Shown here piece by piece: positions 4,155 to 54,476 of a stretch of 64,000 nucleotides of DNA (position 1 is its first letter; every line of letters starts with the position of its first letter). The notes beneath the pieces are model-generated. The model was not told where the DNA came from and made no database searches. It saw only the letters and a program-made list of their open reading frames with translations. The position numbers were made by a program, and so were the translations under genes. The stretch is from Cannabis sativa (lineage: Eukaryota; Streptophyta; Magnoliopsida; Rosales; Cannabaceae): positions 62,698,211 to 62,762,210 of the forward strand of contig NC_083604.1 in the NCBI RefSeq assembly GCF_029168945.1, in the 5' to 3' direction.

Positions 4155-5734
4155 TTAATTTATAACAAAAGTTACCTTGGGTGTTGCAATTACATATTTA
4201 GGCCAAGGAAGGAACATGTTTTCTACTTCCCTAACATATCTATACCCTTCAATTGAGATTGAGATTTCAGCATCCTCTTGCAGCATTTCCAAAATCAGAA
4301 CCTGTGCATGTGAATCATCGTAGTCTTTATAGTGAAATTTTATTAGACCCTCATGCTCGTACAGATACGCTCGGGCCACAATATTGTCGATATTGTCAGA
4401 GCAGAGGTATACTTGTTGATTAAGGGCTCTCTGGTCATCGAAATGGTACAGGACAGGCGGCTGATTGATTGAAACAAACTCCTCAGTATAAATTCGTGGT
4501 CGACCCTCATCCTCACGAGCATATTGTTGTGGAACATATGCCTGATCAGCCACCTCTCCTTCTTCCTCTTGTTGGGCAGTATTTTTCTTCTGTTTAAGGG
4601 ATTGGATTTCGGCTTTTAATTTATCAATCTCCTTCTGTTGCCGAGCTACAACATCAAAAACTTCCCCTTTCTTCCTACCAAACAGTTTAGATACTTTGGT
4701 CAGGAACCTACAAATCATGAAATAAAATTAGCTATGATTTTTTTGTATAACTAAGGAAACAACATTTCAAGTACTAGCATACCCAGTAGCCCTCACACGT
4801 CCAGGATGCTCTGGTGTCCCGAGCGTCTGCTTCAGGATATCGTTTTGGCCATGGACCTACATTTGTCACTAAGTTACTCCTCTAATAGAGCCTAATTATG
4901 CACATATGCAAGCAATTAGTATATGAATTATATATACTAACTCATTAGTAGTACTCAATTAAGGATTAATATATACTTACTATCTTTTCGGCAATTTCCT
5001 TGTTGTAATCAGTGACAAGTTTTGTTCTCTTGGTCTGAGATTTGATCCAAACACGGTGGCGTGGCGGATCTTGAACATCGAGGTCCTTTTTTTACATTAC
5101 TTTATAAAAGTTAAATGAGCACAATTACATTTTAAAGCACATTATTAGAAATCATTGATTACTTACCATATCTTCCCTTGCATTCATTATTCCACTCCGA
5201 CCACTTTGATGTTTGGATTGGATTTTTGTCTAACGTTCCCTTTGCACCTTACTCAATTCCTACAATGCCAAAAAAAAATACATTAGAAACATGCACTTGT
5301 ATTTAAAAGTTATCTTAGTACAAATATAATTAGCGTACTTGAAATTCAGGACTTAGTCGAATTTCAACAAATTTCAACCAATCAGTAAAGTCAATTTTCC
5401 AACGCTTTTCAGGGACTTGTGCCAGTCCTTGCACATCTTTTTCTTCTAATGTGGGCATTATAACATCTTTTATCATTCTATTCTTGAAGTCTTTCATTAA
5501 CTTCCCAGCAAGTATTAGACAATCATGTTTGAAATCATCCGACACAATAAAACCCGTCTAGTTTGAAGAAAAACAAACACGATTAGAGTTAATATCTGAA
5601 TTAATAAAAAACAAATCAAAATTCTCACAAATAACCGCTTACTTGTATCCAACTCCTAAAGTCGATACTAGCTTACAGTAGTTTTTGCCATAGTACTGTC
5701 CTTTGTCATTCACTTTGAGTGCCACTCTTTTTCC
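4155..5734 (-). pseudogene. Transposase_24-type (TNPA-like) CACTA gene, multi-exon
   Basis: On the minus strand exon-like blocks with good splice sites follow each other: 5734 to about 5640 (RVALKVNDKGQYYGKN), 5545-5330, 5258-5166 (with one in-frame stop), about 5090-4982 (ends EIAEKI before GTAAGT), about 4858-4786 (GTPEHPGRVRATG after a TAG acceptor), and about 4703-4177. The last exon begins FLTKVSKLFGRKKG and has a heptad-like stretch rich in K, E and Q (likely coiled coil). It ends VIATPK at a GTAACT donor, so the 187-residue open frame reads a few codons into an intron. The 'KGQ..GKN' and 'GTPEHPGRVRA' phrases are typical of this transposon family. The first exon is cut by the solo LTR at 5735 and continues at 7891-8010. 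Confidence 0.7.
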
Positions 5735-7890
5735 TGTTGGGTTTTGTGCCCTAAATAAAACTCATTTCAATATAATCAGATTTACTTATTAATAAAGATC
5801 ATAAATAACATTTTATGTTGCATGGTTCACATGATTTATTTCATGATTATATATATAATGTATAAATTCTATTTAAGTCCAGAACATATGAATTTGTTAA
5901 TGATTATAGTGTTGTCAGCACAGTGGAATATAATCTTAATAATATGTTCGAAAGTTTATTCCCTGATTTGTCAGAACACTGGATTTAGACTGACATGGTA
6001 TAATCAGCGATAGGTATTCTTACACCTTGGAAAAGTGTTATGTCCTTTCTAGGACATTGGCAAAGTTTACCAGCATCGAATGTATGGAGTATACATCGGA
6101 AGGGACCGATATTGAACTTTGATTAGATATATTAGAATTTACCGTAATATCTATTCAATTTAATATCACCTGTTAATCCTAGATCAAATGATCTTAATCC
6201 TGATATGATTAGGTTCAATCTCAAGAGTGTTATTCGTGTTCTTTGATTTGTTAGTTAAGCCTACTTTTGGGTCAGGGTGATACGTACATTTTGGGAACGC
6301 GGTAGTGCAATTGAGTGGGAGCGCTAACATAAATATGGAATCTATAGCTTCTATCTGGCGAATAGAAAGTAAAGGATGATTTCCTTCGAGCTTAACCAAA
6401 CGAAAATAAATGGTGGAGTACTCATTTCACTTAGCTAAAATATCATTTATACAGGGTTAAGTGTTTTAAGGATAAAATACATTGTAGGGTGTTACGGTAA
6501 TTTAATCCCTTTACAGTGTAGATCATCTATATAGAGGATCATTGATCACATTAGGATTATAACAATGGATAACTAATGACGTATCTATATCGTGGAACAT
6601 ATAGAGCGTTCTATATGACTGAGAGTGCAATTCCAAGTTCTAAGAGTGGATTCAATAAGGAATTAATAAGTTAGGGAATTTACTTGGTAAATTCGGTTCG
6701 ACTTATGGGAAGCTCGGCTATATAGACCCATGGTCCCCATACTAGTTGAGACCATACTGCTTGTAAGACTCAGTTAATTGATTTTAATTAATCAATAATA
6801 ATTCTAAAAGTTAGACTATATCTACTTTATGAATTTTCACTAAGCAATGGCGAAATTGTAAAGAAAAGAGATTCTAGGTTTATTTATTAATTAAGATACT
6901 TTATATGTCTAAATTAATAAATATATTAAATGGCAATATTATTTAATAATTATTTTTTAAGTTATTAAATAATTAGAATTTGCATTTAAAAGGTTATATT
7001 GGAAAAATTGGCATTTTTGAGAAAATGGGAATCAAAAATAACAAAATGGGAAAGTTGCAAAGTGAGGCCCAATTTCCTTATATGGGCCGCCCACTATGCA
7101 TAGGCTTTTACCATTTTATTTTGAGAAACTTACAAAAATACTAGAATTTGGGTTAACTTTTACAAAAATACTGTCACACGGAAATTTTTTCAAAAATACT
7201 GTGTTTTTTATAAAACACCAGTAAAACACAAAGCAGTATAACTCAAAACAACAGTAGAACACTAGTAAAACACCAGTAGAACACTAGTGAAACTTTACAC
7301 AGTATACTGCAGTATGAAACTTATAAAAAAAACACAGTAAAAAAGTAAAAAATACCGCCTGGCCGTATTTTTGTAAAAAAATGGCAAAAATTAGTATAAC
7401 ATGTAAATTTTCCTTTATTTTTCCATTATTTTAATGCCACACTACTCTAACCTAAATCTAGAGGGCATTCTATAAATAGAAAGTAATGGCTTCAGGAAAC
7501 AACACACAATTGCATCTCATTCTTTTCAGAGAGAATTCCTGAGCGTCGCTTTCCTCTCTCTTTTCTTCTCTAAACTTTCGAAATCCCTTGAGTGAATGAG
7601 TAGTGCCCACACACATCAAGTGGTACCTCAATCATAGTATGTAAGACTCTAGAAAATCAGCATCGAAGAAGGAGAGAAAGGGATCCAGATTCAGATCTTG
7701 ATTATGCTCGGCTACAGAAAGGAATCAAGGGTTAGAGATCTGAATGGAAGGAGTCATAATATTTCGCTGCACCCAATGTAAGGTTTTCTTAAACTCTTAT
7801 GTGTTTATTTCATTGTTTTAGAATTCATATTAGGATGTTAATAAAACATACTTGGTAGTAAATCTAGATCCTGGTAAAATATTTCCAACA
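5735..7890 (+). mobile_element. Solo copia LTR in the CACTA gene
   Basis: Begins TGTTGGGTTTTGTGCC and ends ATATTTCCAACA. It is flanked by perfect 5-bp direct repeats TTTCC (5730-5734 and 7891-7895), which fixes both ends. It belongs to the same LTR family as 32763-34673 and 44026-45935, sharing for example the blocks around 'GGGTCAGGGTGATACGTA' and 'GTAGTGCCCACACACA'. A TATA-like TATAAATA lies at 7471-7478. No internal region remains, so it is the product of LTR-LTR recombination. It splits one exon of the CACTA gene: the codons on either side join in frame on the minus strand. Confidence 0.92.
7123..7413. mobile_element. Small MITE-like insertion inside the solo LTR
   Basis: These 291 bases are missing from the two sister LTRs at the corresponding place (near 34150 and 45400). 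The ends are loosely inverted (GAGAAACTTACA and, reversed, GGAAAATTTACA) and the flanks carry TTTATTTT on both sides (7115-7122 and 7414-7421), compatible with an 8-bp duplication, although that sequence is low complexity. Inside are many copies of a CACCAGTARAACA phrase. Confidence 0.55.
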
Positions 7891-8309: not shown

Positions 8310-8820
8310 TGTAACACCCTAACTAGCATAGGTGTATTACGTGATTTTTAAACGTACTGTGCAGCTCGTTGCTAATCAACGAGGTTTATGGAAATCGTGA
8401 TTAATTAAAATTTTTGCTTTTTAATTAAACTTATAAAATATTTATACAAAAAATACTCGGGATCCCGATTACAAAACATTTTACAAAAGTTCACTGACTA
8501 TACAAAATACTTGTCGCCTAGCGACTAATTACAAAACAAGCACTGCTGTCTCGAGGATCGTACGCTCCAGGCCTAACCGCCCCGACATGTACAATCTTCA
8601 CCGGCTCGTTCTCACGGTCCTTCAGCCTTAACCTTGCTCTTACCTACACATAAACATAGCACTGTGAGTCGACAGACTCAGTAAGAAAAGCATAAATCAT
8701 AAACATACATAAATCCCGAGTTATGATCAGACGCCCATATCCCTGACCATAACCCTAACTGTCGTGTCCCACACGATACTGAGTCCCGAACGTTCATAAG
8801 ACATTACTATTGACAAGTAA

Positions 8821-9141
8821 CAGCCTATACTCGGTACACTGGTCATACTCCAGCTGCTAGTCATACTTTAGCCTGTACCGATGTGTTACAGTATCAGCCT
8901 ATACTCGGTTCACTGGTCATACTCCAGCTGCTAGTCATACTCTAGCCTAACCGATGTGATACGGTCAAATAGTACAGTACCACCAACCCTAGTATCAGCC
9001 TATACTCGGTTCACTGGTCATACTCCAGCTGCTAGTCATACTCTAGCCTAACCGATGTGATACAGTGTCAGCCTATACTCGGTACACTGGTCATACTCCA
9101 GCTGCTAGTCATACTCTAGCCTGTACCGATATGACACAGTC
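8821..9141. repeat. Four-copy tandem repeat in LTR 'A'
   Basis: Copies start at 8821, 8895, 8996 and 9069, each beginning CAGCCTATACTCGGT and containing the inner near-duplicate TCATACTCCAGCTGCTAG and TCATACTCTAGCC. Spacing is 73-74 bases except for one copy with a 27-base extension. It lies inside the presumed LTR intron. Confidence 0.85.
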
Positions 9142-9742
9142 GGATGGTACGAAGCCAACATACATATCTAATGTAATCTAACAGGCTTCCTAACATGCAC
9201 GCTAAACATGTAATACATATGCATACTATTATACTAATCTTACCTCAATTCCGAATTCAGGTGTGCCGGTCAACCTGACTGGAACGAACTGCACGGCGGT
9301 TTACAGGCTCCTAAACCATAACAATCACAACACTATAAGTGATACGCTAAATCACTTCCCGGGGACTTAAACTAGGAACTAAAAGTTTCCCTATCGATAA
9401 AAAGCATGGCAATACCCCAAATAACATATAAACGAGAAAATCTAGGGTTTCTGAAAATCACCCAACCGGCAGACCGGTTGCACAACCGGAATTCCGGTTC
9501 TGGAAATTTCAGAACCCCATCCAGAATTCCGGATGCACAACCGGAATTCCGGTTCCTCGCAGAAAACATTCAAAAATTCACACTTTGCTCAAATCAATTC
9601 CAAACCATACTAAAACTTCCAGACCTGTTCTAAATACCCTAAAGAACAAGTCTAAAGCAACAAAACCATCCAGAAACCTCAGACACCAAAAATGCCATGT
9701 GAGCTCCAAGTTTTGAGTTTCAAACTCAAACTTGGCTAAAGC

Positions 9743-11821
9743 TGTAATGACCGCTCTAGTAATGTGGATTAGTAAAGGCAATTAGCACTAATTTTTATTA
9801 TTTTATTATTATTTGTGAATTAATTTTAAATGTGGACCCCAATATTTAGAAATAAATATTAGAGTTATAATTTCTCAATTCCGGAGATTTTATTAAACTC
9901 TAGGGGTATTATTTAGCTTATATGTGAAATATGTTCATTTTGTAATTTTTGCTTGGCGACAACGGAAAATGCGATGGATGGTTAGATTGATCACATGGGT
10001 AAGTTTAGAACCCTATTTCATAGTGGGAAATATTTAGAGGGAATAAATTATCGGGATTGAGCGGGGTTATGGATTTTGACCATTTTACCCCTAGCTTTAG
10101 AAATACTTAAGTTATATCTTTAAGGGTATTTAAGTCTTTTTAAAAGAATGGTGTAGTGGCTGCCTAGGGAGGTGACAAGTGGCCTTATTTTTAGCAAAGG
10201 ATTAATCAATCCTTTTTCCCACTTAGAAAATAAAAGAAAAGAAAATAAATTAGAAGAAATACCTTTCCTCTTGAACACTCTCTCTCTTTCTTTCGGCTGA
10301 GACAAATCAAGGACCAAAACCAGAATTTTTCCTTCCATTTCTTTGAATTTAAGCTAGGATTCAAGGAGATTTCATTAAGGTAAGCCCTAGAACTCTTGTT
10401 TATGTATTTTTGAGCTTTTTACTTAGTTTGAACATGTGATTTTGAGAATAAGTGGCTGTTAGGTTTTAAAATGTTTAGGGTTCGAATTCTAGAGTTATTT
10501 TGAGTTGATTCTAAGTCCTAGCTGCTGGTTTTAATGGGTGTAGATGGTTTTATGCAATTTTAGGTTTAAAGTTCAAAGCTTTGAGCTTTAATGGCATAAT
10601 TTGATTTGTTGGTTTGTTCTGTGATTTATTGGTTGGAAATGGATGTTTATGCATTGTATAGGTATACTGGAGAGTTTGGTAAGGTTTGGGATTGGATTGA
10701 ATTAAGGGGGATGATTTTTGGGTTCCCAGCAGCAGAATCGGAATTCCGGTTCTGGGAGACCAGTACCAACCGGTCGACCGGTTGGTGACCCAGAACCGGA
10801 TTGCCGGTTGGGATCCGGTCTGCCTGTTGGGGGAATTTCCAGAACCCTAGTTTTGGCCAATTTTGAGATATTTAGGGTATTTCCATGAGGTTTATCGATA
10901 GGGAAACTTTTAGTTTCAAATTTAAGTCCCGGAAAGTGATTTAGCGAGTCACTCATCTGTGTTGCAATTATTGTGATTAGGGCATCCATCTAGCACGTGA
11001 ATTCCGTTCAGGTCGGCCAGCACACTTGAATTCGGAAAAGAGGTAAGAACTGTGTATAATGTATGATGTGATTATCTGAATGTGTGTATATGTGTTTATA
11101 TATGCATGCTTGAATTATGTTAAGCACTACCAACACTTGTATGAATAAGTTATAGAGTGCATTGGTATAGTGATTATTGTGATTGTGAGTACGATACAGT
11201 GATACCAACACAAGCATGGGAAAATGCTAAGGTGTGTGGTACATCACTCAGTGTTACTCAGTAATCGGGTTAAACCCTACCAACACTTGTACAGTGAGGT
11301 ACGATGTGTATGTGGTATAGTGGTTGTACCCTGGTATTGAACGTTCATACTCATCTGTTAAGCTCTGTAAATAGGTGTATGGGCGCCTATTTACAGGTCG
11401 GAAATTATATGGTAGGTTATATGCATTTCTTACTGAGTCTGTTGACTCACAGTTTCTGCTTCTATGTGTAGGTAAAGGAAAGGCGAAGGCTGAACAGGAG
11501 TGGACTTGAGCTCGGGTGAGATTGTACATTTCAAGCGGCGCGACCTGGATTGTTCGGTCTCGGGACATCTGGGAGTTGTATTTTGAAAGTCGCTGTGCGA
11601 CCTGAAAATTATGTATTTTGAAATGTAAAGTTTAAACAGTAAATTTTACAAAGTTTGAAATCGGGATCCCGGAATTTGTAAATATTATATTATATTACAA
11701 AGTTTAATAATTAAAGCAAAAGTTTTAATTTAACACGTTTTTCAAGAAATTTCTTTGATTAGCAAAGATTGCACAATAATTGAAAAAGCACTGTAGCGTG
11801 CCTTAGCATTAGGGCGTTACA
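9743..11821 (+). mobile_element. Solo gypsy LTR 'B' with an intron-like segment
   Basis: Starts TGTAATGACCGCTCTAG, ends TTAGGGCGTTACA, and has perfect 5-bp duplications AAAGC (9738-9742 and 11822-11826). It is 2079 bp. Its two outer portions match the LTRs of the complete gypsy element at 18788-25282 closely, while 10380-11471 is absent there. That segment begins GTAAGCCC and ends TCTATGTGTAG after a pyrimidine-rich run, which are consensus splice signals. It sits inside the intron-like part of LTR 'A'. A CT-rich run at about 10275-10300 lies just upstream of the presumed exon 1 end. Confidence 0.92.
10380..11471 (+). other. Intron within the LTR (inferred)
   Basis: The upstream boundary is ATTAAG|GTAAGC and the downstream boundary TGTGTAG|GTAAAGG. 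The complete gypsy element's LTRs read TTAAG directly followed by GTAAAGG (junction on plus at 19145/19146 and 24639/24640). A conserved block near 10981-11042 ends GAG|GTAAGA and also occurs in LTR 'A', so an alternative internal exon is possible. A hairpin (TGAGTC, loop TGTT, GACTCA; 11434-11449) sits 22 bases before the acceptor. The exact junction is seen in the sequence; that it is a spliced intron is inference. Confidence 0.75.
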
Positions 11822-12746
11822 AAAGCTCACCTACAAGCATCAAAACCAGAATAAAACTTCATATTCATGCATAATAAAGCTGGAGAAACCAATCTCAAAC
11901 TCATGCAACAAACACAGCAACTAATTTCAAAATTTCTCTTTTAAAACTAAAGCTTTTGAACCAAAAAAATCTAAACTAGGTTAAATCCAATCAAACAAGC
12001 ACCAAAACAGATTCAATCCACTCAATCCAACATGCTTAAACCTCTTAATACAACAACAAAATCACAGCAACAACATCAACACAAAACTAGCATGCAACAC
12101 TCATCTTTTTAATCAAAATTTCAAGAAACTAAAAGAGCAAGATGAAAAAACTTTACCAACAATTAAAGATCACCAAAATCTTGCTAAAATGAGCTAGATT
12201 CACCAAGAAAAATCCCACTTCCTTGCTGCTCAAGGAGGGCCTAATAGAGAGGAAAAGAGAGAGAGCTTTTTCACAATTTTTCTAACTTTTCTAACTTTGG
12301 AAAATGAAAATAAAGGTTTTAATTACATACTTCAGCCAATATAAATGCCACATAATCACATAATTTCCAATTACAATGTCCACTAAAGGACAAAATATCA
12401 TTGGGGCAAAATGACCAATTTGCCCCTCCATACTAAAACAACATAAAGGCACTAAAGGGATATTTTGGGAAATTCTAAATTCCCGGCCAAATCCTGACAT
12501 TCCCAATGTCTAAATAACCACCCCCTAATACTAACATACTAAGTTGTGATTGCACTGAGCCAAACACCGAGTTCCATGTTACCGGGCACCGAAAATGCAA
12601 AATTATGAAAATCACTAAATGACATAAAATGCATTTCAGAATTCAATAATAACAGTATAATTAATTATTTAAATATCTATAAATAATTTTCCACAATTAA
12701 ACATGATTAACTTCTAATTTCCAAATTAAACTAAGCGGTCTTTACA

Positions 12747-15700
12747 GAAGTCATCATAACATAAATCAACATTCTCCTCATCCTTTTCATTCTCTAAGAA
12801 CCTCCTCTCTCGTGTCGATAAAACAACAGAGATGAATGGATAATTATTGCTTCCTCTCTTACTTAAATCAACCAAAGTAAAACCAAGCTCGTCAGTTTTT
12901 ACTCCAACATTGTTGTCAACCCAAGAACATTTAAAAAGTAGAATTCGGAACGCAAAATAATTGAGCTCCCATATTTCTTCAACAAATCCATAATACGTCA
13001 TAGTACCTAAAACTGAGTTTTTATCTTTTGTACTTACAAAATGCATAGTTTCTGTGAAGATACGTATGCCACTATTTTTAACCTCTCGAGCATCATCTCT
13101 TGGCTTTTTATGGAAATGTTTACCCTTTACAATGTACGCTTCATACTTTGCCACCGCAAAAGTTGGTCCAAGGGAAATATGACTCAACACATCGGATACT
13201 CCATGATTCAGTTCGTTCAACTTTGCTATAATGGTATTCCTTAATCGCCCAATGAAAGTTTGACGATGCTGGTCCGCAACCCATTTTTGTTTATTTTTAT
13301 GATTTCTTGGAATCATTGATTGTAACAGCTTTGTATGGTCACTGTAAAACAAGTAAGGTAAATCAAGTTATTGTTTCATCGTTACTTAAGAAATGTTAAT
13401 CAAAGGAAAAACTGCTTACATTATATGGCTGAACCTCTGCATTATTATTCATCACGACTAATTGAGCTTGATCTAGTTCAAGCTTGGACATTGTCACCAT
13501 TGTCCTGTTCCCCCTTAATCCTCTATCAACCTCAACTCCAGCCATGTACCCTGAACAAAATTCCACAGCCTCTTTAGAAATGTAGCACTCAACCATAAAT
13601 GCTTCTGGCCGATAGTGGTTACGCACATAACTTTTAAGCACCTTCATATTTCTTTCAAATGGATACATCCATCTCGCCCAAATTGCCCACATAACCTTAC
13701 TTCTCTTACTAGATGAACCATTAAATGTATCATGATGTCAAAAAAAGATGGCGAAAAAAAGTTCTCCAGGTTGCATAATGTTTTGACTACATGTTCATGT
13801 AATACATCTAACTTATCCAATTTTAATTCCTTCCCACACAACTTATTAAAGAAATGCAAACATGTGTCAAACACTCTCGAACATTTTTCCGCAAGACTGA
13901 TCTAATGGAAATTGAAAGTAGATGTTGCATTAACACATGTCAATCATGTGATTTTAGACCCATTAGTTTCAATTCAGCTTCATTTACCAAGTTTTTGATT
14001 TTAGACGAGTAACCATCATGTACTTTTATATTTGCATATGATTTGCAAACTATTTGTTTTTCCTTTTTAAACAAAGTGAAACAAGCAGAAGGTAAATATA
14101 ATCGTTTACCTTTCTTCTCAGGTGCCAAAGATTGTCGTATACCTATTTCAACGAGACCTAAATGACTATTTAGACCATCCTTAGTTTTGCAGGGAATATC
14201 AAGTAAGGTACCGATAATACTCTCACACACATTTTTTTCAATATGCATGACATCCAAACAATGTCGAACAAGTAAACTTTTCCAATATGAAAGACAAAAA
14301 AAGATTGACTTTCTTTGAAAACAACCATTTGTTTTCTTATTTTTTTTTTGCATCTTTCTATACTTAAAATCTACAAGTTCTACTTGTTGGAGAATTTGTT
14401 CCCCTGATAATGGCAAAGGAGCCATATCTCCCTCTTTCGTACCATCGAATGCTTTCTTCTTTCATCTATCAGGATGATTTGTAGGCAAATACCGTCTGTG
14501 ACCCATATAACACATCTTGTGTCCGTTTGCCAAGCAACAAGCCCATGTGTTGGTACAACAAATCGGACAACCTTCGTAACCTTTAGTGCTTAAGCCTAAT
14601 AAATTACTGTAAGCTTGAAAATCACTGACAATTCACAATAACACTGCTTTCAGATTAAAGAATTCTTTTTTAAAACCATCATAGGCCTGAACACCATTCT
14701 CATACAATTCTATTAAATCGTCAATCAATGGTTCCAAATATACATCGATATTATGTCCGGGTTGTTGCAGGCCTGATATAATTAAAGAAAGCATATTAAA
14801 TTTCCTCTTCATCACAAACCAGGGAGGAAGATTGTACATAACAAGGAAGACATGCCATTAACTATGACGACTACTTAGAGATCTATTTAGATTTATTCCA
14901 TCCGCAGACAGACCGAGACGAATGTGTCTTGGTTTAGATTTAAATTTAGGATTTATTTAGTTTACTTTTTTCCAAGCTTGGGACTCTGCAGGATTTCTGG
15001 GTTTTCTTGGTCTCATACCAAATCAATTTTTTAGAATGTTCTGCACTACGATATAATCGTTTCAGTCACGGAATCAAAGGAATGTACCACATCACTTTTG
15101 GGGGGATAAGTTTCCTATTCACCTTACTCTTGTTTACTTTGTGGCGGAATAAACCACAAGTTAGGCAATAATCCATATCTGCATATTCCTTACGATATAA
15201 AATGCAATCGTTCGGACAAGCATGGATTTTTTCATACTTCAATCCTATGGAATTTAATTTCTTTTCACTTCATATGTAGATTCCGGGAAGCAGTTGTCAA
15301 ATGGTAAGATATCTTTAAAAGCAGCTAAAAATTGAGTAAAACATTTATCGCTCACTCCATTTTCTACTTTGACGTTGTAAAACTTTACCATTATTGGTAA
15401 TCTTAGTTTTTTACAACCATCGAACAGGGTTTATCACTTAGAAAATTATCGAATTTTTCAGGATCATTAAGAAATTCCTCCTGTGCTTTATTAAGCAAGT
15501 CCAATGGATGGTCATCGAAATCATTACCCTCGATATCATCTACCCCCGCTTTCCTAATGGATATGGATCATCAGCTAAATGTTCGCCATGCCAATACCAA
15601 GTAGTATAACTTCTATTAAAACCTCGTAAATATACATGGTCCTTAATTATTGTAATATTTCTTTTACATCCATTACAATAATCTACACACGGACAATAAA

Positions 15701-15806
15701 TACGTTTGGGATTTTTAGAATTCTTTAAGGAAAACTCTAAAAATGCATCGAACTCTACTTGAAATCACAGTGTGTCGCTCTCCTCATGCATTCATGATTT
15801 ATCCAT
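12747..15806 (-). pseudogene. TNP2-like CACTA transposase, degraded
   Basis: The start is the ATG at 15806 (MDKS-stop-MHEE, TGA at 15792-15794). An N-terminal transposase-associated domain follows, with YCNGCKRNI and a YTTWYWHGE phrase near 15580-15690. The Transposase_21 core follows: YNLPPWFVMKRKFNMLSLII (14839 onward) and RHCLDVMHIEKNVCESIIGT with LDIPCKTKDG (within 14425-13940), the best-known signature of TNP2. A DUF4218-like part covers about 13874-13396 (KLDVLHEHVVKTLCNLE, WARWMYPFERNMKVLKSYVR). A DUF4216-like part runs 13352-12747 (FKCSWVDNN, GFTLVDLSKRG) and is cut by solo LTR 'A'; its last residues before the stop at 12726 come from the LTR. The domains are split across several frames with stops. 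In En/Spm elements this protein recognises the ends and catalyses excision. Confidence 0.82.
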
Positions 15807-15812
15807 AACAAA

Positions 15813-17350
15813 TATCTTAACTCAAAAAATTCAGTGTTTAGTAACTAATTATAACTAGTTACTACTTACACAATGTAACTAAGTAGATTTCTCACAATTA
15901 ATTCATATTAATTTATATATTACTAAAATTATTGTTTTAGTTTGGTTCAATTTATTAAGTTGTATAAGTTGTAAAAATTGTAATTAACTAACTAGGGTAG
16001 TGTTTAGTTGATGGTAATGTTGGTAGAATTGAAATGACTTTTCTTAAAGTGAATCCACTTATTTGTTTGGTTTGTCATTTATAATTAAAAAGTTTATATA
16101 AATGTGTTATGTCACCTAATTTCTTACAACTAGCGAGTAATTAACTAGTTATGTATATTATGTACTTTTCATTTAATATTTATGTTTTTTTAGTAAAATT
16201 TATTCTAATTCTACCAAAATTTTAGCAGCATAACAGCTGTAATTGGACGTTTCCAAAAATTTTAAGAGTGCCTAAAGTAACAAACAAAACAAATATAACA
16301 ATACAAAACAAACAAAATAACATAAACAATACAAAATTTATCCATCCATCCGACCGCAGTACATGTATTCGCAGAACCTACTTCACTACGAATAAATATT
16401 TAAGATATTTAAACTCCACTAAGCATGCATTGATAATTAATTATAATAACAAAAAGTTAGTGAATGTATATACCTATAGCACGTTAAAATCCAATCAATA
16501 CCGAAATATGTCAAACCTCAAAAATTAGCTCACAACCTACAATATAATGCAATATACAACCAAATTAGAATTTTAATTATTTAATTACTTACTAATTATT
16601 AAAAAATGTAATAAGTTACTAGTTACTAAATTCTATAGTTAATTTTTTTAAAAAAGAACATATACAGATATAATCAATTATATATCACACTAACATAATT
16701 TTAAAAACTTTATTTCTAAACTAATTAAATCCCTACTACCTCATTCTCATTTACAATAAATATATATACAATACAATTACATAAAATACACAAATAATAT
16801 ACACACAATATATATAAACACATATTCAATAATAAAACACAAAATGTATACCATTATATTATATATCAAGTTAATAAATATTTACTTTATAAACGCAATC
16901 TGACAACAAATTGCAACAAAAATCCGGCCACCTATAGCACACACAAAACATAATATTAATAAAATGGAAAAATCCCAAAAAAATTTACAAAAATGAAAAT
17001 ATAGCAATGTACATTAATAAAATGAATAGAACTCATGTTTATACCTTAATGGACATTGAGATTCAATATTTTTTCTATTAAAATGGGTGGCCGGAGTTAT
17101 ACCACTACTTTTTTTATAATAGGTTCAGTTATAGTGATAGAAGGGAAAAAATTTAAACTTTTTTACAGTATAGGTTTAGGTATTGAAAATAAAAGATTTT
17201 AAAACAAAAATGGGTAAAATGGTGAAAAAATGAGGAGAATGAGGCTTTTTTATGGGTGGTTGGCGAGGATTTTTTCGTGGGTATGGGGCTGCTATGGCTG
17301 GCTGTTCTTCGTGTTCAATAAGTTGTGAAATGGAGAAGACGATACTATTT
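15813..17350. other. Upstream noncoding part of the CACTA element
   Basis: AT-rich and free of recognisable frames. It probably contained the promoter of the minus-strand TNP2 gene. The part at about 16190-16455 is a diverged same-orientation copy of about 3950-4170 near the other end of the element. Confidence 0.5.
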
Positions 17351-17354
17351 GGGG

Positions 17355-17480
17355 TCTGATATATAAACCTATGGCGTCGGTTATTTAGTATTGATCGACG
17401 CCATAGGTGCACACGTGTCGAATAATGAGTGCACCTATGGCGTCGGTTAATACCAAATAACTGATGCCATAGGGTTAATA
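17355..17480. repeat. Right subterminal repeats of the CACTA element
   Basis: Copies of CCTATGGCGTCGGTTA occur in both orientations (about 17369-17384, 17396-17406 and 17434-17449), matching the cluster at the left end. The inner TIR motif AAAAAACTGCCTCTAAA also appears twice (about 17555 and 17636). Confidence 0.75.
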
Positions 17481-17635
17481 AAAAACTCTTAATTTTACCC
17501 CAACCCCCAACCGATAAAATAGATATAATTAAATTCTATACCTACGGTTTTTACCAAAAAACTGCCTCTAAATATAAATTTCAAACCAGGTAGGTATTTT
17601 CACACCTTTTAGCTTCCCTTTTTATATAATGACTC

Positions 17636-17672
17636 GAAAAAACTGCCTCTAAAGACCATAATTATAGTAGTG
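17636..17672 (-). repeat. Right terminal inverted repeat of the CACTA element
   Basis: Ends ATTATAGTAGTG. Its complement begins CACTACTATAAT and continues into TTTAGAGGCAGTTTTTT, matching the left end. Confidence 0.85.
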
Positions 17673-17677
17673 CACTC

Positions 17678-18787
17678 TCTTCAAAATTACGAATCCTACA
17701 ATTTAACAATATTTGGTAGTCTTTCACCTATCTCTTTACTAGCTAGGTAGCAACAATGTCTTTCCACAAAAGAAAAGAATCTGTGAAAGTGTTGTCATTC
17801 TGACTAACACACAAACTTAAGCAGTAAAGGACCATCATAATACAAATTTATAGTCCAATTCTCAATTCAAAATCTGAAAATAGCCAACCCTAGGTTTTAT
17901 ATGTGCATAATAATTAATGGCAAATGTGAAATGAAACCTCACCAATTTATATGCCTTCCGAAAGTGTCTCTTTTCTGTAGCCGATCCATCTCATTCTGCA
18001 AAATTATCATCGATTGCCATTAACAGTAGCCAATATGGTGAAAAACTTAAAAGTTTTAATTCTTACATCCCCTTTCAAAAATGTAACATATATAGCTAAG
18101 AGAAAATGCAACTCAATAAAATAAATTTACATAAATACCCCCAACTATATACATAATTTCAAAATTAAATTAAACAAAACTAAATATCAGTATTTTTCGC
18201 AACAACAAAAATAGTGTAGTTTTGAGTGTAATAACTGATTGTAACACCAAGCGAGGTTACACATAAAATCCTTTATTTTAAATATTAGAATAAAAAATTT
18301 ATCAAGAGTGCTCTTAGAGCATCTCCAATGGTAAAAAATTAAGGGATGCTTACTTAGGTGGATAGATGAAGTGGCAAAATATTGAGATACTATACTATTA
18401 GAGGAACAAGAATGATATTCTAGGAATATGTGTGAATGCTATACAGCAGCATTGATGCTATTATTATTTTTTTAATAAATAATTAAAACTAAAAAATTAT
18501 TGTTGTTAAAAAATTAAATAATAATGTGTGAGATCATAATTATAGTATTTTTGAAGAGTGATTTTAGAAGTAAGAGTGCCAAAAATAGTAAGGAAAAGAT
18601 ATAAAATAAAATATTATATTTTTGGATGATGTAGAGATTTTTAACGTCTTAAAAAATGCTACTATTAGAGATGCTCTTATAGTCTTATATAATGTATATA
18701 GTCAAATGTCAAATTCAAAATTTAATTTTTCAAAAAATTAATTGATTATATAAATATTAAAAAATAAATATTGCCGATGTAATTAAA
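17678..18787. repeat. Tandem duplication, copy 1 (left part)
   Basis: Together with 25288-25530 this is one copy of a roughly 1-kb unit; the second copy is 25531-26490. The copies share long stretches such as 'GTAGCAACAATGTCTTTC', 'ATTCTGACTAACACACAAA' and 'GTAGCCGATCCATCTCATT'. Copy 1 contains a MITE (18317-18676) and is then split by the gypsy element. On the minus strand, 18001-17947 looks like a small exon (TTTTGCAG acceptor, EMDRLQKRDTFGRHIN, then GTGAGG), so the unit may derive from a gene fragment I cannot identify. Confidence 0.7.
18317..18676. mobile_element. PIF/Harbinger-type MITE
   Basis: 360 bp with inverted ends (GAGCATCTCCAATGGTA, and reversed GAGCATCTCTAATAGTA) and a TTA duplication at 18314-18316 and 18677-18679. 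The unoccupied site is preserved in the second tandem copy near 26142-26156 (GTGCTCTTATAGTC with a single TTA), which confirms both the ends and the target duplication. TTA duplications are typical of the PIF/Harbinger group. Confidence 0.9.
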
Positions 18788-19790
18788 TGTAACGCCCTAA
18801 TGCTAAGGCACGCTACAGTGCTTTTTTTTAATTATTGTGCAATCTTTGCTAATCAAAGAAATTTCTCGAAAAACGTGTCAAATTAAAACTTTTGCATTAA
18901 ATACTAAACTTTGTAATTTAATAAAATATTTACAAGTGGCGGGATCCCGTTTTTTTTTTAAACTTTATAAAATTTACTTTTCAAGCATACATTCCAAAAT
19001 ATACAGATTTACAGGTCGCACAGTGACTTTCAAAATACAACTCCCAGATGTCCCGAGACCGAACACTCCAGGTCGCGCTGCTTTGACATGTACAATCTCA
19101 CCCGAGCTCAGGTTCACTCATGTTCAGCCTTCGCCTTTCCTTTACCTTAACTGGAATCTCCCAAGGTTCCTTGCTAAAATCACCAAGATTCAGCAGCCCT
19201 TTTTCCTTGCCCTTGCTGGTTACGAAGAGAGAGAGAGAGAGAAGAAGGGAGCTTTTCCTTTGAATTTCTTAATTTCCTTCTAATTTTCTAAATGGGATAA
19301 ATGAAATAAATTCATTTAGGGAAAATCCATTTCCCTTGGCTGAAAACAAGTGGCCACGTGCCACACTTTTAGGCAGCCACACAACCCCAAACAAATTACC
19401 ACTTTGCCCTTTAAGTTAACAACTTAGGTGTCTCAAAAGCTAGGGGTAAAATGGTCAATTCCATAACCCCGCTCAATCCCGACAAAATATTTCCTTTAAA
19501 ATATTTCCCACTAAGAAATAAGGTTCTAAACTTACCCATGTGATCAATCTAGCCATCCATCGCATTTTCCGTTGTCGCCGAACAAAAATTACAAAAATAA
19601 CATATTACACATATAAGCTAGATAATACCCCTAGAGTTTAATAAAATCTCCGGAATTAAGAAATTATAATTCTAATATTTATTTCTAAATATTGGGGTCC
19701 ACAATTAAATTAATTCACAAATAATAATAAAATAATAAAAATTAGTGCTAATTGCCTTTACTAAACCATATTACTAAAGCGGTCATTACA
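18788..19790 (-). repeat. 3' LTR of the gypsy element
   Basis: Read on minus it starts TGTAATGACCGCTTTAG and ends TTAGGGCGTTACA. A GA microsatellite lies at about 19226-19241. The 148-residue open frame at 18837-19283 lies wholly inside the LTR and is not a gene. Confidence 0.95.
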
Positions 19791-19806
19791 ATTATCCCCC
19801 CGATAA
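19791..19806 (-). other. Polypurine tract of the gypsy element
   Basis: Directly next to the 3' LTR, the minus strand reads ATCGGGGGGATAAT. Such a G-run primes plus-strand DNA synthesis in retrotransposons. Confidence 0.8.
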
Positions 19807-19811
19807 TAGGA

Positions 19812-21717
19812 TTTCGTCCCCGAAATCTAATCTGAATAGCTCTGGATGTTGAGTCCTCATATCCGACTCTAATTCTCAGGTGACTTCTTCCACCTTACTG
19901 TTCCTCCAGAGTACTTTAACCAGTGCAATAGTCTTGTTTCGAAGAACTTTTTCCTTCCTATCCAAAATCTGCACAGGTTGCTCTTCATAGGATAAGTTTG
20001 ATTGTAGTTCAAGGGCTTCATAACTCAAGATGTGAGTCGGGTCTGACACGTATTTCCTTAACATAGAAATGTGAAATACGTCATGAACAGCCGATAGTGC
20101 TGGTGGTAAGGCTAGCCGATACGCTACCTGCCCGACCTTCTCATGTATCTGAAATGGCCCAATGAACCTAGGGCTTAACTTACCCTTCTTCCCGAAGCGT
20201 CTAATACCCTTCATTAGTGAAACCCGCAGGAAAACATGTTTTCCTGCCTGAAATGTAACATCTCTACGCTTCGGATCAGCATAACTTTTCTGCCTGCTTT
20301 GAGAAGCAAGCATCTCAGCCTTGATCTTATTAATAGCCTTATTGGTCCTCTGCACTAACTCTAGACCCAGGTACTTCCTTTCTCCTGTCTCGTCCCAATG
20401 AATAGGAGAACGACATTTTCTACCATATAACATCTCATAGGGAGTCATCCCTATTGTACTTTGGTAGCTGTTGTTGTAGGAGAATTCAATTAAAGGCAAG
20501 TACTTTCTCCATGAACCCTCAAAGTCCATGACACAGGCTCGCAGTAGGTCTTCTAAAATCTGGATAGTTCCTTCTGACTGACCATCGGTCTGAGGGTGAA
20601 AGGTTGTGCTAAACTTTAACTTGGTACCCATAGCCTTCTGAAGACTCACCCAAAACTTCGATGTGAACTTTGGATCCCTATCTGATACAATAGATTTAGG
20701 GGCTCCATGGAGACGAACTATCTCCTTCATATACAATTCAGCATACTGATCCACTGAATAGGTAACTTTCACTGGTAGAAAGTGAGCCGACTTTGTGAAT
20801 CTGTCTACAATGACCCATACTGAATCATACATCCCCGTAGTTCTAGGCAAACCAGTTACAAAGTCCATTGCAATGTCCTCCCACTTCCATTCTGGAAGGA
20901 CTAAAGGTTGCAATAATCCTGCCGGCCTCTGATGTTCAGCCTTAATCTGCTGGCAGGTTAAACACTTGGACACATAGTCCACCACACCCCTTTTCATCCC
21001 ATACCACCAGAAGTAGGGTTTCAAATCCTGATACATTTTGGTGGTTCCCGGATGCAATGAATAAGGCGTGGTATGAGCTTCATCAAGTATCTCTCTCTTA
21101 AGCTCATCAACATTAGGAACACAAACTCGAGCTTTATATAACAACATTCCACTGCTCGAGACTGAAAAGCCTCTAGGCCGACCAGCCACTACTTCGTCTC
21201 GAACTTTAATTAGCTCGGGATCTTCCAGCTGTGCCTTTCTGATTCTCTCCAATAGATCAGATTGGAGTGTTAAATTATGTAATTTCCCGACCACAAACTC
21301 AATCTCTGCACTAACCATTTCTGAGGCTAGTTGAGGGGCTATCATAATCGTAGTATAAACTTGCCCGGGACCCTTTCTGCTTAAAGCATCGGCCACAACA
21401 TTGGCTTTCCCGGGGTGATACAGTATTTCACAATCGTAGTCCTTAACTAACTCCAACCACCTTCTCTGCCTCATATTTAGATCTTTCTGGGTGAAAAAGT
21501 ATTTGAGACTTTTATGATCAGTATAAATCTCACACTTTTCACCGTAAAGATAATGTTGCCAAATCTTTAAAGCAAAAACCACAGCAGCGAGCTCTAAATC
21601 ATGAGTTGGGTAACGCTGCTTATAATCCTTCAGTTGACGAGAGGCATAGGCTATAACTCTATCAGCTTGCATCAAAACACATCCCAGACCCTGTCTGGAT
21701 GCATCACAATAAACCAC
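19812..21717 (-). pseudogene. Gypsy RNase H, integrase and chromodomain region
   Basis: The open frame 21717-19876 (613 residues from a GTG codon) is uninterrupted. RNase H occupies about residues 1-115: [23 protein letters not shown] and [10 protein letters not shown]. The integrase has a zinc-binding start (H and H in the [11 protein letters not shown] region, then [12 protein letters not shown]). Its core shows the D, D and E residues in [15 protein letters not shown] and GQSEG. After the core come [25 protein letters not shown] and a chromodomain-like segment ([15 protein letters not shown]). The frame stops at TGA (19876-19878) where chromoviruses carry a conserved Trp, although similarity continues to about 19812. 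The upstream stop near 21735 separates it from the reverse transcriptase, so it would not be made as part of a polyprotein. Confidence 0.88.
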
Positions 21718-21734
21718 AAATTTTTCTTGATCTC

Positions 21735-22520
21735 ATGGCAAAGCTAACACCGGAGTTGTTATCAAACGTTGCTTCAGCTCCTGAAAACTTGTTTCACACT
21801 TATCTGACCACACAAATCTCTGATTATTTCTTAGTCAATTCGGTTAGGGGCATAGAAAGTTTAGAAAATCCTTCGACGAAACGTCGATAATACCCTGCTA
21901 ACCCGAGAAAACTTCGAATTTCCGTCACAGACTTGGGCCTCGGCCAATTCTTCACTGGTTCCACCTTGTTTGCATCGACCATAATTCCATTCTTCCCAAC
22001 AATATGTCCCAGAAAGGACACTTCAGACAACCAGAATTCGCACTTTTGAACTTGGCATACAACTTGTGATCCCTAAGTCGCTGTAACACCATTCGAAGAT
22101 GATGCTCGTGCTCCTCTTCTGACTGAGAGTATACAAGAATGTCATCGATAAACACTATAACGCAGTTATCGAGGAAATCCTTGAATACCCTATTCATGAG
22201 ATCCATAAAAGCCGCAGGAGCATTAGTCAATCCGAATGACATTACCAGAAACTCATAGTGCCCATATCTGGTTCTAAAAGCAGTCTTCGGTATGTCCTCC
22301 TCCCGAATTCTGAGTTGGTAATCAGATCGTAAATCAATCCTCGAAAACTCTGTCGTTCCCTGAAGCTGATCAAACAGATCGTCGATTCAGGGCAACGGGT
22401 ACTTGTTCTTAATCATTAATTTGTTTAGTTCCTGATTATTAATACATATTCTGAGGGAACCATCTTTCTTCTTTACAAACAGAACCGGAGCTCCCTAGGG
22501 CGATGCACTGGGTCGGATAA
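21735..22520 (-). pseudogene. Gypsy reverse transcriptase region, broken
   Basis: Recognisable motifs in order: [18 protein letters not shown], then [30 protein letters not shown] and [12 protein letters not shown] (the catalytic DD pair is present), then [11 protein letters not shown] and [14 protein letters not shown]. Breaks: TAG at 22495-22497, TGA at 22387-22389, a one-base frameshift near 22035-22050, a TAA after LTELTKK at 21824, and a TGA near 21735. In this family the first two stop positions are normally Trp and Arg. Confidence 0.88.
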
Positions 22521-23100
22521 ACCCAATGTCAAAGCATCCCCTGAAGTTGCAACTTAAACTCCTTGAGTTCGGCTGGAGCCATTCTATATGGAAACTTTAG
22601 AAACAGGTTCGACTCCAGGTGCCAGATCAATTACAAAATCAACCTCTCGCTGTGGCGGCAATCCCGGTAATTCCTCGGGAAACACATCAAGAAAAATCTT
22701 TCACCACCCTGATTGCCTCATGCCCAAATGTTTCAGGTCTGCTGGAGTCAATTACCACTGCTAGAAATCCTACACAGCCACTGCATAGTAAATCCCTAGC
22801 CCTTAGTACAGATATAACCGGGATCCGAAACCCCTGGATTGATCCAACATAACCAAATGGATCTTTACCTTCCGGATGAAAAATCACCATTTTCCGCCTA
22901 CAATCTAAACTGGCTGAATACTTGGACAAAAATCCACTTCCAGTATAATGGCAAACTCAGTTAATTTCAACTCTATAAAGTCAGTACTTAACTTCCAATC
23001 TTCGATCCTAACTGGCTTAGACCTAATGTGCCTATTAAAGATAATCAATTCCCCGCTAGGCATTAGGGTTCCAAACCCTCTTTCTAAAACATCACAAGGC

Positions 23101-24006
23101 CTACCCTAAAAGATCAACCACTCTTATAATTACATATAAGCGTGTAGCTCCCGAGTTAAACATCACAATGTAAAAGAAGTCGCTTACAAAGAACTGACCT
23201 GCCACTACAGAAGGGCTTGCTGCATCATCAGCTCGAGCATTAGCATTCACCGGGGTAGGAACAAATACCGCTTTCTGCTCTTGTTCTTCTTTCTCCACCT
23301 GTGGGCAATCTTTCTTAAAATGTCCAACCTTGCCACATTGAAAACATACTTTTCGGTTGCATTCTCCGGGATGGTGTTTCATGCAACGTGGGCACTCAGG
23401 GTAAGAATAACCCTGGCGTGCTCCCTTGCCTTGAAACCTTCGGAACCGCTTGTTCTGTCTTAAACCCACCACTGATGACGTAGGTTTCCTCTTTCGCTCA
23501 ATCATGGAGCTCCTACCACTTCCACCATATTCTGGATTCAGGCAGGTATTATTCTGACCCCCTACAATAATCTCCTGAGGTCTCATAATAATTTTCTCAG
23601 GGCTTCCAACCCAAGAAGCATTCTTCACATTTGAACCTCCCTGAAGGTCTGAAGGTTCTTGAATCCAAATCTTTTCATGCAATGGTTCCACTTGAGTACC
23701 AGCCATTCCATGTTTCGCTGGTAATACCGAATCAAAAATGATTGGCTTATGTGGTAAAGATATTACAGGAGACCTTTGCTGTTTCAACCTCTGAATTACT
23801 TCTTCATGTCGTTGAATCACAGCTTCTATTTTTGCAAACCTTTGCTCCAAATCCAACGGAGCTTGTGACGGATAACCATCACTCCCGTCGGAAGCCCTCC
23901 AAGGGATTTCACCTTGGTAACGGGGACAACTTGAACTCCATTCTCTCCAACCGTTACTAGCCCTGGCCACTTTATTCTGACTCTCCATAATGCACCAGGT
24001 GTCCAT
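23101..24006 (-). pseudogene. Gypsy gag and protease start, truncated
   Basis: This open frame of 301 residues begins at 24006 (MDTWCIMESQNKVARASNG). Residues about 50-75 (DLEQRFAKIEAVIQRHEEV) look coiled-coil. A zinc knuckle CFQCGKVGHFKKDC lies at about residues 219-232, preceded by a second Cys/His cluster CPRCMKHHPGEC. The protease active site reads FNSGA (Asn codon at 23155-23157) where aspartic proteases need DSGA or DTGA. Compared with usual chromoviral gags the central capsid domain is not recognisable between the coiled coil and the knuckle, so an internal deletion is likely. The frame ends at 23101; the linker to the reverse transcriptase (22520-23100) has only fragments. Confidence 0.82.
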
Positions 24007-24267
24007 TCTATAAGACTAACCTGTCAGTTAGTAAGTCAGCTTGGTCAGGCAACGGCCTATTTACATACTTACTACCGCACTTATGGATTTTAAGGCAATG
24101 CACTTAACATAAACAGTTATAATCTAATATGCTTCCTAACATGCTTTCCCATTCGTAATTTTTTTAAAAGAAAATACTAAACAAGTACGGGCTTACTGAA
24201 CCGTGAACCGAGCTTTCTCTGATGAAGATTGTACATATCTTAGCAAGCTTCGGTAGACAAACCTGGC

Positions 24268-24280
24268 GGCTCTGATACCA
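24268..24280 (-). other. Primer-binding site of the gypsy element
   Basis: The minus strand reads TGGTATCAGAGCC four bases from the 5' LTR, complementary to the 3' end of initiator methionine tRNA, the usual primer of this group. Confidence 0.93.
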
Positions 24281-24284
24281 AAAT

Positions 24285-25282
24285 TGTAACGCCCTAATGC
24301 TAAGGCACGCTACAGTGCTTTTTTTTAATTATTGTGCAATCTTTGCTAATCAAAGAAATTTCTCGAAACGTGTCAAATTAAAACTTTTGCATTAAATACT
24401 AAACTTTGTAATTTAATAAAATATTTACAAGTGCCGGGATCCCGTTTTTTTTTAAACTTTATAAAATTTACTTTTCAAGCATACATTCACAAATATACAG
24501 ATTTACAGGTCGCACAGCGACTTTCAAAATACAACTCCCAGATGTCCCGAGACCGAACACTCCAGGTCGCGCTGCTTTGACATGTACAATCTCACCCGAG
24601 CTCAGGTTCTCTCCTGTTCAGCCTTCGCCTTTCCTTTACCTTAACTTGAATCTCCCAAGGTTCCTTGCTAAAATCACCAAGATTCAGCAGCCCTTTTTCC
24701 TTGCCCTTGCTGGTTACGAAGAGAGAGAGAGAGAAGAAGGAAGCTTTTCCTTTGAATTTCTTATTTTCCTTCTAATTTTCTAAATGGGATAAATGAAATA
24801 AATTCATTTAGGGAAAATCCATTTCCCTTGGCTGAAAACAAGTGGCCACGTGCCACACTTTTAGGCAGCCACACAACCCCAAACAAATTACCACTTTGCC
24901 CTTTAAGTTAACAACTTAGGTGTCTCAAAAGCTAGGGGTAAAATGGTCAATTCCATAACCCCGCTCAATCCCGACAAAATATTTCCTTTAAAATATTTCC
25001 CACTAAGAAATAAGGTTCTAAACTTACCCATGTGATCAATCTAGCCATCCATCGCATTTTCCGTTGTCGCCGAACAAAAATTACAAAAATAACATATTAC
25101 ACATATAAGCTAGATAATACCCCTAGAGTTTAATAAAATCTCCGGAATTGAGAAATTATAACTCTAATATTTATTTCTAAATATTGGGGTCCACAATTAA
25201 ATTAATTCACAAATAATAATAAAATAATAAAAATTAGTGCTAATTGCCTTTACTAAACCATATTACTAAAGCGGTCATTACA
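24285..25282 (-). repeat. 5' LTR of the gypsy element
   Basis: Near-identical to 18788-19790, and it carries the same TTAAG/GTAAAGG junction (24639/24640). The 68-residue open frame at 24577-24783 mirrors that in the other LTR and is not a gene. Confidence 0.95.
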
Positions 25283-25287
25283 TTAAA

Positions 25288-26490
25288 TATTAATTATATA
25301 TATTAGTTTAATAATTAATATAAAAAATTTATCAAGGTATTTAGTATTTTTATAATATTATCTCTTATAATTGGTTGACATTATTTTTCATAATTAATTA
25401 ACGATTTTTTATAATATTTATTAAATTGAAACAAGTTAAATTCAATATAAAATTACACCAACAACAATATACCGAACAAAATCTTTTATGCTAGCATGAT
25501 AGCGCCCTTAGCATTTCTCTTTTAAGTTCAAATAATTTGACAATATTTGGTAGACTTTCACCTTCCTCCTTACTAGGTAGCAACAATGTCTTTCTACTAG
25601 AGAAAACAATTAGTGAAAGTGTTTTCATTCTGACTAACACACAAATTAACTTAAGCAACAAAGGACTATCATAATGCAAATTTATAGTCTAATTTCCAAT
25701 TCATAATCTAAAAATAGCTAACCTTAAGCTCCATATGTGCACAATAATTAATGGAAGATGCAAAATGAAACCTCACCAATTTATATGCGTTCCTAAAAGT
25801 TTTATTTTCTGTAGCCGATCCATCTCATTCTGCAAAATCGTCCATTGCCACCAACAGTAGCCAATATGGTAAAAGACTTAATAGTTCTAGTTCTTACATC
25901 TCCTTTCAAAAATATAACATAACTAATTAAGAAAAAATACAACTCAATAATAAAATAAATTTACATAAATACCCCTAATTATATACATAATTTCAAAATT
26001 AAATTAAATTAACTAAATATCAGTATTTTCCTCAACAAAAAATTAACGATATAATTTGCGTGTAATAACTGGTTATAACACCAAGCGATGTTCTACATAA
26101 AATCCTTTATTTTAAATATAAGAATAAAAAAATTATTCAAAGTGCTCTTATAGTCTTATACAATGTATATGTGTGTCCATTGTTAAATATAGTCAAATGT
26201 CAAATTCAAAAGTTGATTTTTCAAAAAATTAATTGATTATAGAAATATTAAAAAATAAATGTTGTTGATGTAATTAAATATTAATTTTATATATTTTAAT
26301 TTAATAATTAATATAAAAAATTTATCAAAGTGCGTGCTTAGTATTTTTATAATGTTACCTCTTATAATTATTTGATGTTAATTAAATTAAAATAAGTTAA
26401 ATTTAATATTAAATTACGCCAATAATAATATTACAACTAACAAAATTTTTGTATGCCAGCCTTAGCATTTCTCTTAAGTTCAATTAATGT
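25288..26490. repeat. Tandem duplication: end of copy 1 and whole of copy 2
   Basis: 25288-25530 finishes copy 1; 25531-26490 is copy 2. Copy 2 has neither the MITE nor the gypsy insertion. Shared phrases include 'ACAATATTTGGTAG', 'CCTCACCAATTTATATG' and 'TTCAAAAAATTAATTGAT'. The copies differ at many positions, so the duplication is older than the gypsy insertion. Confidence 0.7.
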
Positions 26491-26787
26491 GAGCTCGTGC
26501 TGGTGGTGTTCATTAGTCTAAGTTGATATTCACACACAACACAAAAAATGAAAACAATATATTCTTCTTCTGCAGAAGTGCATGGGATGGGACCACTGGG
26601 CAGTGACCACCTTGTACATGTCGATTGTCGACTCTCATACAGCTTTGACTGACCTTCTATTATATATAAACAATTCACTCTTCCATGTTCAACTTACTAC
26701 CACTATCACCCCAAATACACACATTATTGTACCGTTTTGTACCACCTCCCTACGTTTCACTATTAATTACTATATATATATAAGTAT
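26491..26787. other. Intergenic, no gene seen
   Basis: No credible frame on either strand. The open frame 26582-26854 has no recognisable motif. Confidence 0.5.
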
Positions 26788-49097: not shown

Positions 49098-49324
49098 TGT
49101 TATAAATATTAATAATTATGTGGATGTCCAAATTTTTTATTTATTACCATTAATTGTAATCAACATTCCTCTTTTTCTTAGTTTCTTAATATCTCACTCT
49201 TGTATTTATATAAATAGGGGTTCACCCCATTGGAATAAACAACTCAGAAATTCTCATTCACTTTCTCTTTCTCTCTTCGTCTTCTTCTTCTTTCCTCTCA
49301 TCTACTTTATATTATTTTATAACA
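49098..49324 (+). repeat. 5' LTR of the short-LTR copia element
   Basis: TGTTATAAATATTAATAA start, TATTTTATAACA end. TATA-like 'TATATAAATAGGGG' near 49205-49220, then a CT-rich run. The 165-residue open frame 48994-49491 crosses this LTR and is not a gene. Confidence 0.93.
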
Positions 49325-54249: not shown

Positions 54250-54476
54250 TGTTATAAATATTAATAATTATGTGGATGTCCAAATCTTTTATTTATTACC
54301 ATTAATTGTAATCAACATTCCTCTTTTTCTTAGTTTCTTAATATCTCACTCTTGTATTTGTATAAATAGGGGTTCACCCCATTAGAATAAACAACTCAGA
54401 AATTCTCATTCACTTTCTCTTTCTCTCTTCATCTTCTTCTTCTTTCCTCTCATCTACTTTATATTATTTTATAACA
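54250..54476 (+). repeat. 3' LTR of the short-LTR copia element
   Basis: 227 bp, same ends as 49098-49324. Confidence 0.93.

Follow-up and report, generated by a model that had tools for sequence, protein, structure and literature searches.

In the 64,000-nt stretch of DNA analysed here (the window) we identified three types of long terminal repeat (LTR) that belong to one broad family, and we consider it highly probable that these LTRs carry a leader intron that the lineage of one gypsy element lost through reverse transcription of a spliced RNA. The features on which this reading rests are the following.

8310-12746, minus strand: LTR2, a solo LTR that is older and belongs to the same broad family, with the target-site duplication ACTTC; the younger solo LTR is nested in its candidate intron
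8644-12156, minus strand: candidate intron of LTR2, 1429 bases excluding the nested LTR, with a weak donor (TTG/GTAAAG) and the acceptor TGTGTAG/GTAAG
8664-8682, minus strand: hairpin of LTR2, with the stem as in the solo LTR
9743-11821, plus strand: solo LTR with the candidate intron, target-site duplication AAAGC (9738-9742 and 11822-11826)
10127-10379, plus strand: block preceding the donor, with a similarity of only 62% to the element LTRs, the putative site of the promoter and leader exon
10380-11471, plus strand: candidate leader intron, GT..AG, 1092 bases, absent from both element LTRs
11432-11450, plus strand: hairpin ACTGAGTC-TGTT-GACTCAC of the solo LTR, over the branch-point-like CTCAC
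11472-11821, plus strand: second exonic part of the solo LTR, poor in ATG; its similarity to the element LTRs is 92%
18788-19790, minus strand: 3' LTR of the gypsy element, without the intron, junction 19146/19145
19791-24284, minus strand: internal region of the gypsy element, with parts (CCHC gag-like, RT, RNase H-integrase) in separate broken frames
24285-25282, minus strand: 5' LTR of the gypsy element, without the intron, junction 24640/24639

With positions 10380-11471 taken out, the solo LTR comprised 987 bases (988 in the alignment run, which included one flanking base) and aligned over the full length with both element LTRs, which have 998 and 1003 bases. The segment starts with GTAAGC after AAG and ends with TGTGTAG before GTAAAGG, and at the junction of each element LTR TTAAG abuts GTAAAGG directly, so that the identical segment is missing from both. 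An earlier reading made from the letters alone (the sequence-only reading) had claimed that the solo and element LTRs match on either side of one boundary, that the solo LTR has 1092 bases that the element LTRs lack, and that TTAAG joins GTAAAGG in both of the latter; the alignment bore out all three. The GT..AG of the gap lies in the sense direction of the element (minus strand, with the PBS-like TGGTATCAGAG following the 24285 end).

The gypsy element (18788-25282) is flanked by the target-site duplication TTAAA, and between its two LTRs there are 11 differences in 998 sites (K2P 0.011). It has the TG..CA LTR ends, 5-bp target duplication and tRNA-like PBS of Ty3/gypsy elements; we take the PBS-like TGGTATCAGAG to be a tRNA primer site. 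The Pfam domains on the minus strand follow the Ty3/gypsy order of RVT_1, RNase H and integrase zinc-binding, with the rve core falling under its curated cut-off. The element had been described as complete, which holds for its structure but not for its coding capacity, since its gag-like, RT and RNase H-integrase regions are in different, interrupted reading frames. No Pfam chromodomain was found in the 613-aa frame, and PF00385 is present in some relatives among the matches listed. The window is DNA of a plant: the 120 matches listed for the integrase frame, of 7,983 scored, included a Humulus lupulus protein with 80% identity over 55% of the query, the most identical of those that carry an organism name, and another match at 86%. 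The name Tekay is our assignment, presumed from resemblance. The element is flanked by a diverged duplication (17700-18787 and 25283-26492, 84% identical over 629 bases), in which the copy near 26274 contains the empty site of the insertion. Elsewhere in the window, direct repeats at 32763-34673 and 44026-45935 are 97% identical over 1.9 kb and lie 11 kb apart; the first is followed by the PBS-like TGGTATCAGAG, which points to a second LTR element of about 13 kb, and a diverged relative of these repeats (79-81%) lies at 5734-7890. Another direct repeat (49098-49324 and 54250-54476) is 98% identical over 227 bases at a distance of 5.2 kb. An Rfam scan of the window gave no match.

We propose that LTRs of this chromovirus-like plant family carry a spliceosomal leader intron whose donor and acceptor would both lie within the LTR. 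Transcription would begin slightly upstream of the donor; we infer this start from its position and a CT-rich stretch near 10280 only, because a simple scan for a TATA box was negative in all three LTR types. Splicing would take out about 1.1-1.4 kb of ATG-rich sequence, so that gag would be preceded by a short, ATG-poor leader, and the unspliced RNA would be the genome that rebuilds intron-bearing LTRs. In the reverse transcription of LTR elements, R and U5 of both new LTRs are copied from the RNA's 5' end. If a spliced RNA were packaged and reverse-transcribed, two intron-less LTRs would be expected because its 5'-derived R-U5 enters both, and each would then be without the intron, precisely at the splice junction. 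The gypsy element (18788-25282) would be such an intron-less copy or the descendant of one, and the loss may be ancestral and inherited by the element.

The exact junction does most in this argument. It had been claimed as an exact GT..AG junction, and the gap edges indeed allow GT..AG, but they allow other readings too: AGGTAA stands as a direct repeat at both edges (2 bases left, 4 right), which gives seven edge readings, of which GT..AG is one. An ancestral deletion between the two AGGTAA copies, by slippage, recombination or template switching of the reverse transcriptase, would make the GT..AG fit a coincidence. The loss from both LTRs is not decisive by itself because a DNA deletion in the parental 5' LTR reaches both LTRs likewise. 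In addition, a sharply diverged block that the sequence-only reading did not mention stops at the junction. The 253 bases at 10127-10379 are 62% alike between the solo LTR and the element LTRs (24640-24898 and 19146-19406), and the adjoining blocks are 93% and 92% alike. This pattern shows that the lineage of the element also recombined, apparently by a swap of promoter or leader; it would also be compatible with a deletion made at AGGTAA by template switching, an event that may have imported the 253-bp block as well. However, the solo LTR has 620 pairs of direct repeats that are 6 bp or longer and spaced 200-1800 bp apart, 36 of them readable as GT..AG, yet only one pair links the top-scoring donor (AAG/GTAAGC) with the top-scoring acceptor (TGTGTAG/G), and that pair is the gap's own. 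Scoring used a general splice consensus; under a slightly wider consensus the donor still ranked first, with one tie, among 148 GTs. The claimed consensus donor and acceptor were thus found again as the best pair of the LTR. The solo LTR has the GT..AG ends and the consensus donor and acceptor of a U2-type intron, and the donor of LTR2 is weak. A deletion would also leave unexplained the ATG pattern and the layout shared among LTRs that are described below, and we judge it unlikely.

We counted ATG triplets in the LTRs on either side of the candidate splice sites and between them. In the exonic parts of the solo LTR and LTR2 (913 bases, the start of the leader exon being the analyst's choice) ATG was the most depleted of the 64 triplets, with 5 seen against 19.1 expected, while the introns (2,521 bases) had 70 against 56.7 expected (Fisher p 1.6e-5 for exonic versus intronic). 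Triplets with these three letters in any other order occurred at 0.79-1.10 of expectation. The next most depleted exonic triplet, ACT, was nearly as low (4 seen, 13.6 expected), which counts against our reading. The second exonic part alone had 5 ATGs against about 15 expected in the two LTRs together, and 2 against 8.1 in the solo LTR. The element's 5' LTR, which lacks the intron, had no ATG in its leader part and 4 in its second part (8.1 expected). Tolerance of ATG inside the segment and its avoidance on both sides are what would be expected if the segment were removed before gag is translated, and the pattern looks as if the translated RNA lacked the intron. The T-richness of plant introns relative to their flanks was not seen in the candidate intron (T 0.36, against 0.36 and 0.31 in the flanks), and its G+C was slightly above that of the flanks.

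The ATG counts also bear on a reading in which the intron is real and its spliced junction incidental or made in host chimeric transcripts, the element having lost the segment when it recombined with an unrelated LTR type that had no intron. In favour of this, the element LTR is a mosaic, and chimeric gene transcripts started by LTRs occur in sunflower, according to the part of PMC12844716 on which we draw. The depletion of ATG nevertheless runs on through the second exonic part towards gag, and we saw no intron-less donor LTR type in the sequence that this analysis covered; we hold this course of events to be very improbable.

LTR2 bears on the direction of the change. Its donor at 12156 and its acceptor ending at 8644 are arranged as in the solo LTR, and its identity to the solo LTR was 55% in the first block, 62% in the intron (1084 aligned sites) and 66% in the second exonic part. 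The position of the LTR2 donor was set by the alignment; the site scored 5 of 9 and ranked 34th, with 55 ties, among 203 GTs. Since so distant an LTR keeps a homologous segment with matching borders, the segment is ancestral and was lost by the lineage of the element; judged from these alignments, the form with the intron preceded the one without it. The same homology contradicts the notion that the segment was inserted into the solo LTR, with the 6-bp direct repeat AGGTAA at its edges as target-site duplication and the element LTR as the ancestral form, and we reject it as scarcely credible. Tandem-like repeat units, 76-90% alike, occupy 8816-9150 within the LTR2 intron.

We also scanned contigs of bacterial genomes for relatives, using an alignment of 16 sequences, and found nine loci (L001-L009). 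Seven of them showed 51-57% identity; their contigs (L001-L007), published in bacterial assemblies, are plant-like, bear retrotransposon sequence and are plausibly contamination by plant DNA. Six of these seven had part of the layout of the solo LTR; we left out of the count L008 (30%) and L009 (24%) as too distant, and L002, which stops about 460 bases into the LTR. L001, L003, L006 and L007 extend to the donor region, and each has a run of 147-305 bases free of ATG that ends at a GT scoring 6-9 of 9 and ranking 1-5 within its own LTR with up to 20 ties; these donors were chosen by eye, partly through the ATG-free run, so the two observations depend on each other. The acceptor region is covered by L003, L004, L005 and L007, each with a hairpin and an acceptor. 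They represent three lineages, since L004 and L005, which come from two CPCC strains and share 99% identity along 5.7 kb, are counted as one. Both intron ends are visible in L003 (1,135 bases) and L007 (1,048 bases). The introns of the relatives exceed the ATG number expected from base composition (in L003, 60 against 23.3). The second exonic part was mildly ATG-poor in L005 (4 seen, 6.5 expected) and not ATG-poor in L007 (6 seen, 6.9 expected). In IMG/VR, three pattern scans for LTR motifs gave no match and another gave 12 stretches, which we judged to be chance matches, the surroundings of 6 of the 12 having no PBS or other sign of an LTR. Searches of IMG/VR with the integrase frame gave no relative in one run and a single one (L010) in another, which was set aside as a plant-like match of 250 bases fused to GC-rich sequence. 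A tblastn search of plasmids and phages at E 1e-30 found none. The claim that splicing was followed by reverse transcription into both LTRs draws support from the LTR2 segment, the depletion of ATG in the exonic parts only, the layout of the relatives and the joining of the best splice sites.

A branch-point-like YTNAY site lies 15-40 bases before the acceptor in all six LTRs that reach it (the solo LTR, LTR2 and four relatives), such sites being short and common. In all six, 5-8 Watson-Crick pairs span the site, and the same stem was formed by 1-34 of 2,000 shuffled sequences per LTR (for L004 the tested stretch lacked one base at the end). An initial alignment of the acceptor region, in which the hairpins did not fall into register, was discarded. 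Read by eye, the stems show two-sided changes at pair 2 (G-C to A-T, in L007) and pair 5 (T-A to C-G), and pair 6 occurs as C-G, A-T and T-A and is unformed in L003. A count of covariation over the 4-pair core had all cells paired and one two-sided change, which 89 of 500 shuffles matched, a weak and not significant result; the two further compensating pairs come from the reading by eye only. Minimum-energy folds of 110 bases kept the hairpin in four of the six (the solo LTR, LTR2, L004 and L005) and not in L003 or L007. We put forward as a proposal only that the hairpin may restrain splicing.

Splicing in LTR elements is already known, and what would be new here is its place, inside the LTR. 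The major splice donor of foamy viruses is located in R. In the part of PMC7828637 that we use, foamy viruses and similar retroviruses resemble the proposed arrangement in having a major splice donor in the leader near the 5' end and a genome that is kept unspliced; their acceptor, however, lies far downstream in the genome, so that the LTR is not rebuilt without an intron. According to the portions of a December 2025 review drawn on here (PMC12786077), plant LTR retrotransposons are generally without introns, with Ogre and EVADE named as exceptions. The excerpts used of PMC6317226 and PMC12786077 mention the intron of Ogre (Tat lineage), also a plant Ty3/gypsy element, whose intron is partly spliced so that spliced and unspliced RNAs occur together. 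EVADE and the short-gag splicing of BARE1 are similar in that splicing separates a translated RNA from the full-length one, but these are Ty1/copia elements with the intron in the coding region, where it alters the protein (PMC12786077, same portions). The intron-marked Ty experiment and later retrotransposition reporters likewise use intron loss as proof of passage through spliced RNA, but that Ty intron was placed by experimenters whereas the LTR intron would be natural (PMC12786077, same portions). The leader intron of the plant gene AtMHX also lies in the untranslated leader and possibly boosts expression (PMC3095359, in the part used); it differs in belonging to a host gene. Introns in LTRs are not described in the sections used of three sunflower papers (PMC7730604, PMC9784723, PMC11728184), and in the openly licensed literature we found no recognisable report of an intron inside a plant LTR.

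How plant Ty3/gypsy elements part translated RNA from packaged RNA is poorly known. It is possible, at somewhat short of an even chance, that the use of an LTR-internal leader intron, its branch point enclosed by a conserved hairpin, is ancient and widespread among these plant chromoviruses, in which weakened splicing would divide the transcript into an ATG-poor mRNA and an intron-bearing genome, and packaged spliced RNA would give rise to intron-less families. If the leader intron that we infer is real, an abundant clade would hold a family-wide exception hidden in sequence that is usually treated as promoter or junk, and the counts of intron-plus and intron-minus LTRs would provide a natural record of the frequency with which spliced RNA is packaged, measurable in any plant genome.
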